From Spirochaetia bacterium (GTDB lineage: Bacteria; Spirochaetota; Spirochaetia; Treponematales; Rectinemataceae): DNA of 64,000 nucleotides. Positions 25,957-39,790 of the stretch are shown in pieces. A program made the translations under genes and the position numbers. The stretch lies in assembly GCA_029975555.1 (NCBI GenBank), contig JARKOY010000125.1, positions 62,001-126,000 of the forward strand. The letters are read 5' to 3'. The notes below the pieces were generated by a model that was given only the letters and a program-made list of their open reading frames with translations, did not search any database and was not told the DNA's origin. How positions within the stretch are numbered: position 1 is the first letter of the stretch; every line of letters starts with the position of its first letter.

Positions 25957-26553
25957 TCATTGGATAGAGATGAGACTGAGCATCGCGGCCATTTTCTGCG
26001 CCGCTTTTCCTCGGTGAGAGATGCGATTCTTCTCTTCCGGTGAAAGCTCCGCGACAGTCTTTGCCCACTGCGGCAGATACACTATCGGATCATAGCCGAA
26101 CCCTTGCATTCCCCGCGGCGCCATGCTTATTTCTCCTTCCAGAGTCTCCTGGACACAGAGAAAGCGCTGCCGACCGTAATACAGCACCAGACAGCAGACA
26201 AAGGCACAGCGGCGGTCCTGCACATGCTCGAGCTCCGAAAGGAGAAGTCTGTTTTTCTCCTCCGCGGAAAGAGGAGTGCCGCCCGAAGCGCCATACCGGG
26301 CCGATTCGATGCCGGGGCGGCCGCCGAGCGCCTCGACGCAGAGTCCGGAATCATCTGCAATGACGGGCCTTCCTGTAATCCTATAGAGAGATTCTGCCTT
26401 GATGAGCGCATTTTCGAAGAATGTCGTTCCGTGTTCTTCTGGATTAAAATTCCCTATCCCCAGGTCTGCGGGCCGCAGAAGCTCGTGCCCGGCAAACAGG
26501 GGCTTCAATTCCTCGAACTTGTGGATGTTGTTCGTCGCGATCAAGAGTTGCAT
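25957..26553 (-). CDS. rdgB: XTP/dITP diphosphatase (RdgB/HAM1 family)
   Basis: House-cleaning pyrophosphatase that hydrolyses deaminated purine triphosphates (dITP, XTP) to keep them out of DNA and RNA. It has 198 residues. Family motifs in order: LLIATNNIHKFEEL at the N-terminus, TTFFENALIKAESL, VIADDSGLCVEALGG, and GFGYDPIVYLP followed by SHRGKA at the C-terminus. It starts 12 nt after the sigma-like gene ends, so the two are probably one operon. The convergent rpmE terminator lies just beyond its end. Confidence 0.95.
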   Translation of the reverse strand: MQLLIATNNIHKFEELKPLFAGHELLRPADLGIGNFNPEEHGTTFFENALIKAESLYRITGRPVIADDSGLCVEALGGRPGIESARYGASGGTPLSAEEKNRLLLSELEHVQDRRCAFVCCLVLYYGRQRFLCVQETLEGEISMAPRGMQGFGYDPIVYLPQWAKTVAELSPEEKNRISHRGKAAQKMAAMLSLISIQ

Positions 26554-26564
26554 AGCCCTGATGT

Positions 26565-27407
26565 CTAGCCTAATTTTCGGTAATCTGCAAGTGCCCCGCC
26601 CGTGGCGACGTTTTTCCTAAGGTAAAATAGTCCAGAATCGACGCTGCCCTTCGGCACTCCCAAAAGTTCCGAGATGAGCTCATTCGAAACCAAAGACTTG
26701 TGGCGTCGCCTTTTCTCGAGAAGACACACATAGCGCCGCCGGCACCTCTCCAGTGAGCGCGCGATGCACTCCTTTTCATTGTTAAGAAGGGAAGTCTCCA
26801 ACCTGAGTTCCAACACACGGAGCCTGATCCAGAGGGTATTCAGTTTGGCATTCAACGCGTCAATCTGTTTTTGTTCTCCTTCGGTCCTCCGTTTCGCCAA
26901 CTCCACTAAATTGAACAGATATTGCTCCGGCATGCCAAGGGCAGAACTGCATTTCTTCAGGATCTCTTCATCGACTTCCCACGCGCATTTTATCATTAAG
27001 TATAGAAGGCGTTTACGCTCTGGGCTCAACTTTTTTAAGAATACCTGAGGAGCAAGGCCGAGGACCTTTTGCGCATCGCTCGCTCCCTCCGCTTCATCCT
27101 CTTCTGTGAAGGCATCCGCCGGCGCTTCGAACACGAGATCTTCCGAAAAATGCGAATGTAGATAGGCATTTTCCCATAAGGTTGCACTGAAATTCTGCCG
27201 ATGTATACTCTTTGCCACAAATCGCATGCTGCTCAGAAGATATGCTTCTCGGGTCCTGCTCTCCTTGTCGGCGCGCTCGAGGATCCCCTCGATTCGGCCC
27301 CGAAAATGCTGCAATGCGTCCGAGATCTCATCCTCGTTGAAAAAACCGTAGCGCTTTGGGTGTGCATACATTTGGCGCACGAGATCAAGATAACTTTTAG
27401 AATCCAT
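26565..27407 (-). CDS. divergent sigma-70-like / helix-turn-helix protein, function unknown
   Basis: A 280-residue protein I cannot assign firmly. Its C-terminal ~30 residues, VSNELISELLGVPKGSVDSGLFYLRKNV, closely follow the sigma region 4 helix-turn-helix pattern (short helix, G-V-P-x-G-S-V turn, recognition helix with the L-x-x-x-R-K tail). The N-terminal RYGFFNEDEISDALQHFRGRIEGI is acidic and helical like region 2 of divergent sigma factors, but no clear -10 reading helix is seen. The middle (about 190-240) is coiled coil with many Leu and Arg. GGAGG lies 6 nt before ATG 27407. A near-consensus sigma-54 promoter directly upstream suggests a regulatory cascade. rdgB follows in the same operon. 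Confidence 0.65.
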   Translation of the reverse strand: MDSKSYLDLVRQMYAHPKRYGFFNEDEISDALQHFRGRIEGILERADKESRTREAYLLSSMRFVAKSIHRQNFSATLWENAYLHSHFSEDLVFEAPADAFTEEDEAEGASDAQKVLGLAPQVFLKKLSPERKRLLYLMIKCAWEVDEEILKKCSSALGMPEQYLFNLVELAKRRTEGEQKQIDALNAKLNTLWIRLRVLELRLETSLLNNEKECIARSLERCRRRYVCLLEKRRRHKSLVSNELISELLGVPKGSVDSGLFYLRKNVATGGALADYRKLG

Positions 27408-27430
27408 TTCGAACCTCCGCCTTTCCTTAG

Positions 27431-27446
27431 TGCAAGCGACATGCCA
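27431..27446 (-). promoter_or_regulatory. predicted sigma-54 (RpoN) promoter
   Basis: Minus strand TGGCATGTCGCTTGCA matches TGGCACG-N4-TTGCW at all but one position, with the invariant GG and GC at -24/-12 spacing. The expected start near 27420 gives a 13-nt leader that just includes GGAGG (27418-27414). An NtrC-type activator is encoded at 38.4 kb. No other sigma-54 site of this quality was noticed. Confidence 0.65.
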
Positions 27447-27797
27447 AAATGAACTGCAGGGGTTCAAAAAGATGAATATCGATACAAATTTTTACAAATT
27501 AGAGAATTAATTCTGCTGGATAATGATGATGATTTTTTAAAAAAGGTGTAAGAAAAAGGATCAATGGAATTGGCCAAAATCGCAGGGCCCGCATCCTCGG
27601 CAATGCTTAGGGAAGCCCTCTGTGGCATTCGTGGACCAGGACAGCAAACAAACAGGCTTTCCTTCTATCCTTTTTCATGCAAGGGCTGTCCCGCGCCATG
27701 GAAGGCGGAGTGGTCAAAAATCTTTCGGATACTTTTCATAGAAAAGGGAGCTGGCCAGGAACAAGTTCGATAACTTACTCAACTGCCGAACAGCATA
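27447..27797. other. 351-bp intergenic stretch without a supported gene
   Basis: The left part is AT-rich and holds a 12-bp palindrome AGAATTAATTCT and a TTTTTTAAAAAA tract near 27535. This may be upstream activator or IHF/HU-type territory for the sigma-54 promoter. The right part is more GC-rich, with GGACAGC and GCTGTCC about 50 nt apart that could pair. A 69-codon plus-strand frame at 27564 has AAAGGA before it but no recognisable protein. I find no match to tRNA, tmRNA, RNase P or SRP RNA hallmarks. Confidence 0.4.
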
Positions 27798-28784
27798 TCA
27801 TTTCTCGCTCTCTTCGTCGCTGAAAATGTCCGAAAAGGCTTCGACGAGGGTGTGGACGACTTTTTCGACCTTGCCGCTCATGGAGAGCCCGGCAGCAAGC
27901 CTGTGGCCGCCGCCGCCATACTGCTCGGCGATCTTCGCCACATTGACGGAGTCACGCGACCTTAGGCCGACGGTACACATATCGTCGGTCTCCTGTTTCA
28001 CCACAAAACAGACCTCGCAGTCGACGATGCCCATCATGAGCTGATACAAGAGATCCGAATCTCGGCTCGACATGCCATACTTCTGCTGGTCATCGATCGT
28101 GACCCATGAAACCAGAAGCCGGCCTTCGTAGTACGGCTGAATGCGCAAGAGGAGCTCGCCCAGCATTCTCCTCGAGGCCAAGGTTCTGCCGCCGTTGATC
28201 GCCATAAAGACGCGCTTTGGGGAAACTCCTGCCTCCACGAGCCGAGAGGCTATTTTGAAGGTTTCACTTCCGTGCTCATCCAAGTGCCGAAAAAAACCGG
28301 TGTCGGTGCTGAGGCCAAAGAACAGAAGCTCGGCCTCGTCCTTTGTGGGCGTGTGCCTCATCGTCTCCATGAGGATTAGAATCATGGCGGAGACCGCGGG
28401 CGCTGACTCATCGATCCAGTCGTAAGGCCCGCAGGCCCCCTTCGTCGCATGGTGATCGATGAAGGCCACGGGGATGTTCGGCATTTTTTCGGCGACAGCC
28501 CCTATCCTCGACATGGAAGAACAATCGAGCACGAGGGCCGCGGTCCGCTCGAAGTCCCTTTCGGCAGGCACGTCGCTCTTAAAGCGCGACTCGAACGGCA
28601 GAATTTCGATCCGGTTAAAGGGACCCGAAGAGAGCACGTGCACCCGCTTGCCCATGCCCTGCAGCATAGACGCGAGCGAGAGCTGCGAACCGATACAGTC
28701 GCCGTCGGGCTCGCGGTGTCCGACGATATAGAAACAGTCATGCTGATCGATGAATTCGAGCAGCATCCTAGGAACCGGCTTCAT
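27798..28784 (-). CDS. nrnA: DHH-family phosphoesterase, NrnA-like (nanoRNase / pAp phosphatase)
   Basis: Degrades 2-5 nt RNA fragments and 3'-phosphoadenosine 5'-phosphate. It has 328 residues, as usual for NrnA. Metal-binding motifs of the DHH family are present: GHREPDGDCIGS (I), VLDCSSMSRIG (II), FIDHHAT (III, the DHH triad), then the DHHA1 substrate motif GGGGHRLAAG near the C-terminus. It begins 11 nt after argF. Cyclic-dinucleotide phosphodiesterases share this fold, but without the extra GdpP domains the NrnA role is more likely. Confidence 0.92.
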   Translation of the reverse strand: MKPVPRMLLEFIDQHDCFYIVGHREPDGDCIGSQLSLASMLQGMGKRVHVLSSGPFNRIEILPFESRFKSDVPAERDFERTAALVLDCSSMSRIGAVAEKMPNIPVAFIDHHATKGACGPYDWIDESAPAVSAMILILMETMRHTPTKDEAELLFFGLSTDTGFFRHLDEHGSETFKIASRLVEAGVSPKRVFMAINGGRTLASRRMLGELLLRIQPYYEGRLLVSWVTIDDQQKYGMSSRDSDLLYQLMMGIVDCEVCFVVKQETDDMCTVGLRSRDSVNVAKIAEQYGGGGHRLAAGLSMSGKVEKVVHTLVEAFSDIFSDEESEK

Positions 28785-38386: not shown

Positions 38387-39790
38387 ATGAGGGCGACACT
38401 GCTTGTGGTAGACGACGAAATCAACATTCGCGAAGGCCTTGCGCAGCTCTTTTCAATGGAGGGGTACGAGGTCAAGACCGCAAAAGATGGCATTGAAGGC
38501 AAGACCATCGTCGACAGGGAAGATGTCGACGTCGTCATCACCGACTACAAGATGGGAAGGATGAGCGGGCTCGATCTTTTGCAGTACATCGTATCCACGC
38601 ATCCTGGCATTCCCGTGATCATTCTCACTGCGTACGGGAGCGTCGACAAGGCGGTGGAGGCGATGCGCCAGGGGGCCTTCGACTTTATCGCGAAACCGCC
38701 CAACACGGATCACCTCGTCAACCTCGTGAAACGCGCCCTGGAGACGCGTGAGCTCTATCGGACCAACCTCGAACTCAAAGCCGAGGTCGAAAGCCAGCGT
38801 GCCAGGAGCTACATCATCGGCCAGGCGCCGTCGATCAAACGCATCTTCGACCTTATCCGAAAGGTGGCCCCCACCAAGGCCAGCGTCCTCATCACGGGCG
38901 AATCCGGCGTCGGCAAAGAGCTGGTGGCTGACGCGATCCACAATCTTTCTCCGAGGAAGGAGATGCCCTTCATCAAGGTGCACTGTGCGGCGCTGGCTGA
39001 GAGCCTATTGGAGAGCGAGCTCTTCGGGCACGAAAAAGGCGCCTTTACGGGGGCGACGGCGCGCAAGAGGGGAAGGTTCGAAATGGCCGACGGAGGCACG
39101 CTCTTCCTCGATGAAATCGGCGAGATAAACCAAAATGTACAGATCAAAATTCTCCGTGTCCTGCAAGACCACAAATTCGAACGTGTGGGCGGAGAAGAGA
39201 CGCTCGAAGTGGATGTGCGGCTCATCGCAGCGACCAACCGCGATCTAAAAAAGGAGATCGCCGAAGGACGCTTCAGGGAAGACCTCTACTACCGCTTAAA
39301 CGTGGTCAACATCCATGTGCCCCCCTTGCGCGAGCGTCGCGAGGATATTCCGCTTCTTGCCATGGCTTTCCTGAAGGAATTCGCGGAAGAAAATGGCAAG
39401 CAGATCGAGGGGCTCGATCCAAAGGCGAGGCAGGCGCTCTATACCTACGATTGGCCCGGCAATGTGCGCGAACTCAGAAACTGCATCGAGAGCGCCGTCG
39501 TCATGGCCTCGGGGAAACTGATCACGCTGGACGACCTGCCGCCAGGCCCTCGATCGAGCGCCGAAACGCGCGTCATCAGCATCCCAGCATTCTCTTCGAT
39601 GGAAGACGCGGAGCGCATCCTCATCGCCGAAACGCTCGCCCTCGTCGGTGGCAACAAGTCCAAGGCCGCAGAGATACTCAAGATCGGTCGAAAAACGCTT
39701 TACCAGAAAATCGAACAGTACGGAATCGCCCTGCCGGACCTCGGTGCGGCAGGAGAAGGCGAAAAGACACAAGTGTCACAGGGCACATGA
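38387..39790 (+). CDS. sigma-54-dependent response regulator, NtrC family
   Basis: Activator of 467 residues. The receiver domain has VVDDE and the phospho-acceptor Asp in DVVITDYKMG (about D53). The AAA+ domain has Walker A GESGVGKELVADA, the sigma-54-contacting loop GAFTGA, Walker B LFLDEIGEI, and the arginine finger region. The C-terminal Fis-type helix-turn-helix is LALVGGNKSKAAEILKIGRKTLYQKI. GGAGGA inside the end of the kinase gene serves as its ribosome-binding site. Targets are unknown; the sigma-54 promoter at 27.4 kb is one candidate. It converges on fliA, with 4 bp between their ends. Confidence 0.95.
   Translation: MRATLLVVDDEINIREGLAQLFSMEGYEVKTAKDGIEGKTIVDREDVDVVITDYKMGRMSGLDLLQYIVSTHPGIPVIILTAYGSVDKAVEAMRQGAFDFIAKPPNTDHLVNLVKRALETRELYRTNLELKAEVESQRARSYIIGQAPSIKRIFDLIRKVAPTKASVLITGESGVGKELVADAIHNLSPRKEMPFIKVHCAALAESLLESELFGHEKGAFTGATARKRGRFEMADGGTLFLDEIGEINQNVQIKILRVLQDHKFERVGGEETLEVDVRLIAATNRDLKKEIAEGRFREDLYYRLNVVNIHVPPLRERREDIPLLAMAFLKEFAEENGKQIEGLDPKARQALYTYDWPGNVRELRNCIESAVVMASGKLITLDDLPPGPRSSAETRVISIPAFSSMEDAERILIAETLALVGGNKSKAAEILKIGRKTLYQKIEQYGIALPDLGAAGEGEKTQVSQGT

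Follow-up and report, generated by a model that had tools for sequence, protein, structure and literature searches.

Cascades in which RpoN directs the gene of another sigma factor are so far known singly, as rpoS in Borrelia and as hrpL, which encodes an ECF-type sigma factor, in plant pathogens. HrpL is driven by RpoN together with HrpR/HrpS (PMC8657755, in excerpt), while in Borrelia RpoN binds a -24/-12 site of rpoS, where a change of the G at -24 to T lowers both binding and expression (PMC3037356, in excerpt). Among treponemes, the sigma-70 factor TDE0937 of T. denticola goes up 2.8-fold with heat, 21.8-fold with oxygen and 14.0-fold with osmotic stress and has been proposed as a stress regulator (PMC2965109, in excerpt); RpoN or sigma-54 finds no mention in the main text of that paper. 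Our literature search, which covered titles and abstract openings and left subscription papers mostly outside its scope, found no RpoN-driven sigma gene in spirochaetes outside Borrelia, and no description of the protein family treated here.

This family came to light in a 64-kb window, by which we mean the whole stretch of DNA analysed (G000:C70:62001-126000), from a spirochaete genome of 3.27 Mb. A gene for a sigma-like protein, which we call P0001, lies there between a predicted sigma-54 promoter and rdgB, in the following arrangement:

27798-28784, minus strand: gene of a DHH phosphoesterase, the upstream neighbour (open reading frame, conserved synteny).
27431-27446, minus strand: predicted sigma-54 (-24/-12) promoter, TGGCATGTCGCTTGCA, kept in orthologues.
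27408-27420, minus strand: predicted 13-nt leader, GCGGAGGTTCGAA, with a GGAGG ribosome-binding site at 27414-27418; relatives have similar leaders.
26565-27407, minus strand: the P0001 gene, an open reading frame for a sigma-like protein of 280 aa.
25957-26553, minus strand: rdgB, for a non-canonical NTP pyrophosphatase (open reading frame, conserved synteny), 11 nt downstream of the P0001 gene.

We think it quite likely, from comparison of sequences, that RpoN polymerase and an NtrC-type activator transcribe P0001 and rdgB as an operon, and that P0001 would act at a second tier, either as a sigma factor or as a co-regulator of sigma-like type.

Measured against TGGCACG-N4-TTGCW, TGGCATGTCGCTTGCA has a single mismatch (T for C at position 6), and it fits TGGCAYR-N4-TTGCW, with the GG and GC dinucleotides at -24/-12 spacing. 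Its first T lies 39 nt from the ATG of P0001 at 27407. On a simple weighted promoter score with a maximum of 23.5, whose weights we set ourselves, it reaches 22.5 and is the sole site of at least 22.5 on either strand of the window, the runners-up standing at 21.0. As a positive control, the same scorer gave 22-22.5 for all four rpoS loci of genomes that we label Borrelia-like (this label, like 'Treponema-like' below, is inferred and rests partly on gene set), and none of six rpoD loci reached 19.5. With C27432 taken as -12, P0001 transcription would start near 27420, at the head of the 13-nt leader. The first-pass annotation had described a one-mismatch sigma-54 consensus with -24/-12 spacing and a 13-nt leader with GGAGG before the ATG, and on re-reading of the sequence these statements, coordinates included, were all correct. 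A search for an activator-binding site upstream of TGGCATGTCGCTTGCA turned up weak inverted repeats, together with conserved blocks of no assigned role.

The site is conserved well beyond this genome. P0001 orthologues occur in 26 of the 30 genomes of the GTDB family, with protein identities down to about 30%, and their loci carry a site of at least 19.5 in 25 of 26 cases (at least 20 in 24 of 26), the distance from its first base to a start codon with a ribosome-binding site being 38-53 nt. In the single miss (L017) a contig end truncates the upstream region. A profile of the 26 family proteins matched 97 of 392 genomes of the phylum. For a wider set we took 85 loci outside the GTDB family, across the class, leaving aside same-phylum or contig-end matches of the profile (G370, G032, G081, G113, G138, G228, G243). 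Fifty-one of the 85 have a site of at least 20 at the right place, mostly between the DHH gene and the sigma-like gene; by family, these are 20/23 in f2, 8/10 in f3, 3/13 in f4, 3/3 in both f5 and f7, 0/5 in f9, 0/3 in f11, 6/9 in f12 and 8/16 in ten other families. The remaining 34 include several near misses at 18.5-19.5 and others with no site. When the four closest genomes are aligned, few blocks of the intergenic region, which has otherwise diverged, are kept as well as the promoter core. The first-pass annotation had named non-conservation of the motif in orthologous loci as evidence against its reading; instead, the site is present in nearly all loci of the family and in most of the wider set.

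Those lineages that lack the site are what one would expect if the sigma-54 consensus had arisen by chance and the P0001 gene were read from an unrecognised promoter. In control windows of 60 nt from the same loci, however, only 32 of 9709 (0.3%) reach 20, as do three of 226 control open reading frames with a ribosome-binding site, one of these three being the P0001 family's own site in L112; nor was a sigma-70-type promoter found in the P0001 upstream region. Set against these controls, the counts in orthologues make a chance match extremely improbable, and we reject it.

Loss of rpoN does not in general explain the absence of the site in some lineages, as its domain PF04552 is present in 377 of the 392 phylum genomes. 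Two lineages show altered elements. In a T. denticola-like genus (g15; L226, L227, L229, L231, L253, L255) the second base of TGGCA is lost and TTGCT is kept, the variants being TAGCAT before the P0002 type of sigma gene (see below) and TTGCAC before the P0001 type; the -24 element may possibly have changed in concert with RpoN there. In family f10 (L118, L119) GGGAAT stands in place of TGGCAT before the sigma-like gene, and the rpoN matches in these genomes (E 5e-11 and 8e-13) have an RpoN DNA-binding domain that looks divergent too. Four weak same-phylum matches (G034, G127, G055, G166) lack RdgB/DHH neighbours and show no site of at least 19.5, and were rejected as P0001 orthologues on both counts. 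No P0001 homologue was found in the Borrelia-like genomes G130, G292 and G272 or in the small Treponema-like genome G085.

The order DHH phosphoesterase, sigma-like gene, rdgB is widely kept, with rdgB downstream in most loci whose flanking sequence covers that position, and in the window rdgB is probably co-transcribed with P0001. It might accordingly be asked whether the promoter serves chiefly rdgB, for the removal of damaged nucleotides under stress, with the sigma-like first gene perhaps tuning the operon. The recurrence of rdgB as the next gene in most covered loci and the 11-nt gap in the window suit this view. We nonetheless hold it to be improbable: in three f2 genomes (G311, G322, G409) tblastn locates RdgB on the opposite strand, upstream, whereas the site remains next to the sigma-like gene, and P0001 is itself conserved across the class.

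Between the DHH gene and the promoter lie about 200 nt (27549-27748, minus strand) that are partly conserved in four genomes, in pieces that read CCTTTTCTAT-GAAAG, AAAAGGAT and GAGGAT...TCCTTTTT. A structured RNA was considered for this stretch and rejected (fold z-score -0.63 for 27540-27740; two-sided changes in four of 32 pairs), and Rfam gave nothing near a gathering score for the spacer. It is probably the terminator and spacer of the DHH gene, together with an element of no assigned role.

The genome carries rpoN once, with eight strong sigma-54 activators and three marginal AAA+ matches. One of the eight lies in the window:

38387-39790, plus strand: open reading frame for an NtrC-type sigma-54 activator, the sole one in the window.

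The earlier statement that the window holds a single sigma-54 activator is thus right. The suggestion that the NtrB/NtrC-type pair, 11 kb away, activates P0001 is unsupported: there are seven other strong activators in the genome, and with only one of eight in the window, nearness gives no ground for assigning this promoter to it.

By profile comparison, P0001 is a distant member of the sigma-70 family, with the domain order sigma-2, sigma-3-like, sigma-4:

27168-27407, minus strand: residues 1-80, sigma region 2, ECF-like (hhalign 88%, E 3e-6, for this piece).
26868-27065, minus strand: residues 115-180, a helix-turn-helix best matched by sigma region 3 (hhalign 80%, E 1.3e-5).
26700-26882, minus strand: residues 176-236, a long helical hairpin inserted before sigma-4 (low-confidence model).
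26598-26702, minus strand: residues 236-270, sigma region 4 helix-turn-helix with the recognition helix PKG[ST]VDSG (hhalign 96.7%, E 4.4e-10).

With the whole profile (111 aligned rows against 18 ECF factors), region 2 rises to 95% (E 2.5e-8), compared with at most 0.4% in 20 column shuffles and 0.4% for the reversed alignment. Residues 115-180 match ECF sigma-4 at 31%, below their 80% to the sigma-3 of sigma-70 factors; residues 236-270 also match sigma-3, another helix-turn-helix, at 87%. The C-terminal ELLGVPKGSVDSGLFYLRK, earlier called region-4-like, does match sigma region 4, by profile only. Residues 176-236 have no hhalign match among sigma domains; their helices (176-205 and 209-234) come from an all-helical AlphaFold model built on three sequences, with a mean pLDDT of 55.5. 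A Foldseek search with this poor model gave no match at 0.001, which at such a pLDDT is uninformative and says nothing about the fold.

A profile search against sigma factor families, proposed in the first-pass annotation, had a divided outcome. On the one hand, 12 of the 26 members match the sigma70-ECF model TIGR02937 (best 6.1e-7), Sigma70_r2 of Pfam is matched weakly by five of 26 and Sigma70_r4 by one of 26 (6e-5). On the other hand, the window's own P0001 matches no sigma model in Pfam, and in NCBIfam it falls short of every curated cut-off, its best E being 0.029 with 13.9 bits against a cut-off of 236. No curated family covers P0001, and the sigma-like family is a new one, previously unnamed. 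Weak Pfam matches to CENP-F_leu_zip and YchJ_M-like and a match to PDB 1wh5 (E 0.019) were taken as coiled-coil or generic helix-turn-helix noise. Viral contigs were also looked for, and none was found.

Whether P0001 works as a full sigma factor is open to doubt, given its recognition helix and its hairpin. The basic residues at the Lys/Arg positions of the canonical region 4 recognition helix are usually absent from the P0001 family: position 257 is D in 85 of 111 rows, where 17 of 18 ECF factors have K, and position 259 is G in 52 of 111 rows, where 15 of 18 have R, these 111-row counts taking in divergent members and giving near-identical relatives full weight. P0001 might instead be RpoN-controlled without being a working sigma, that is, a sigma-derived regulator that binds RNA polymerase, another sigma factor or DNA, whether as an anti-sigma, a holoenzyme co-activator or a plain DNA-binding regulator. 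The exchange of Lys/Arg for Asp/Gly in most orthologues, a long hairpin where the sigma-3/4 linker should lie and the failure of the window's protein at every curated cut-off shown all point in that direction. We nevertheless consider it unlikely, as the order of sigma-2, sigma-3-like and sigma-4 domains is kept and most orthologues retain the hydrophobic pattern and the basic tail of region 2. The reading of the locus as an RpoN-to-sigma cascade, already put forward in the first-pass annotation, gains comparative support from the conserved site and the sigma-70-like profile taken together.

RpoN-type sites elsewhere suggest that P0001 belongs to a larger set of genes. Exact copies of TGGCAYRNNNNTTGCW number nine in the same genome and 103 in ten genomes of the genus, compared with 10 for the reversed pattern in the latter. 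We examined 104 rows from the genus (one site occurs twice), of which 81 have a downstream open reading frame with a ribosome-binding-like sequence. The largest cluster behind these sites comprises 18 sigma-70 genes, nine of an RpoS-like type (P0002) and nine of a second type (C167), followed by Hsp20 (10), peroxiredoxin (six), the P0001 family (six rows from five genomes), glutamine-synthetase-like genes (six, named by eye) and a sugar-binding protein (five). Single sites (within L273-L363) also precede Dps-like, HPr-like and AmtB-like genes, again named by eye. As far as names given by eye can be trusted, the RpoN-type sites of this genus (g1) would mark a combined stress and nitrogen regulon.

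In the mechanism that we favour, an NtrC-type activator responding to stress or starvation would open RNA polymerase-RpoN at TGGCATGTCGCTTGCA, and the polymerase would transcribe an operon made up of the divergent sigma-70-family gene P0001 and then rdgB. P0001 would bind core RNA polymerase and redirect it, as a sigma factor of a second tier or as a co-regulator resembling one, within a stress or starvation programme. RdgB removes non-canonical nucleotides; that it shares a type of promoter with Hsp20 and peroxiredoxin fits a stress programme.

Two further sigma genes of the same genome are preceded by such sites:

G000:C151:160546-160561 (L126): site of P0002, an RpoS-like sigma factor of 292 aa, 40 nt before the ATG.
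G000:C167:25573-26235 (L155): the C167 sigma gene, of the 273-aa type, with the near-consensus site TGGCACTAAATTTGCT 52 nt before the ATG.

Together with P0001, three of the genome's eight sigma-70-family genes have a site of 22.5; the other five have none above 17, save one of 20.0 at an unlikely distance. In this genome, then, at least three sigma-70-family genes seem to be under RpoN. P0002 matched 182 of 198 genomes at E 1e-50, and 25 of the best 30 matched loci (L206-L235 among them) have a site of at least 20; the other five are four from genus g15, with TAGCAY and TTGCT, and one without anything. The small Treponema-like genome G085 likewise scores 22.5 before its P0002 homologue. The link from RpoN to a sigma gene before P0002 would, on these sites, not be specific to Borrelia. 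In G194 the P0002 orthologue is found at 960 kb of 2.8 Mb, the expected place of TDE0937, and TDE0937 is on this basis probably the P0002 orthologue. By its position near 1.105 Mb, the P0002 homologue of a small Treponema-like genome could correspond to TP1012, which appears as a 35-kDa sigma factor in PMC5015957 (in excerpt).

In a tree of 29 sigma factors, from which P0001 was left out and for which the tool issued a long-branch warning, Borrelia-like RpoS falls with the C167 type (97/97) rather than with the P0002 type (88/87). In this genome RpoN-C167 is therefore probably the closest equivalent of the Borrelia pair, and the pairing with P0001 would be a different one; P0001 forms a separate family and was not found to be an RpoS orthologue. 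That the pairing here could differ from that of Borrelia had been raised at the outset, and it is borne out because two more sigma genes of the same genome carry sigma-54 sites.

A broader reading, on which we are close to evenly divided and lean slightly against, is that RpoN heads an ancient stress circuit of spirochaetes, firing the phylum-wide RpoS-like P0002 (the TDE0937 type), a forerunner of Borrelia RpoS and, in P0001, a new class of sigma marked by its sigma-3-like domain, inserted helical hairpin and charge-reversed recognition helix. If this is true, the P0001 class would either recognise a -35 element of a new kind or do without contact at -35, and the virulence cascade of Borrelia would be a surviving branch of a circuit that is old, widespread and apparently at work in relatives of the syphilis and Lyme bacteria, both free-living ones and those of the gut. 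The comparative evidence places three sigma-70-family genes under RpoN in one genus, and two of the three across a class or phylum as a whole. With it come a possible source of the Borrelia cascade, a likely regulator of TDE0937, the stress sigma of T. denticola, and a new sigma-like family with a recognition helix unlike the canonical one.

Among described systems, the Rrp2-RpoN-RpoS pathway of Borrelia burgdorferi resembles this locus in having a -24/-12 RpoN site directly before a sigma-70-family gene (PMC3037356, in excerpt). It differs in that P0001 is not RpoS, and belongs to a divergent family with no homologue found in the Borrelia-like genomes. TDE0937, unlike P0001, is a conventional sigma-70. 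ECF sigma factors (TIGR02937 / NF009171) share regions 2 and 4 with P0001 by profile, whereas P0001 adds a sigma-3-like domain and a helical hairpin, has D/G for K/R and is about 280 aa or more in length. RpoN-HrpL is alike in that RpoN and its activators drive the gene of an alternative sigma factor (PMC8657755, in excerpt); it belongs to another phylum, and the standing of HrpL as a sigma factor is established. P0001 has no link to type III secretion and, unlike HrpL, carries the extra sigma-3-like domain, the hairpin and the altered recognition helix.
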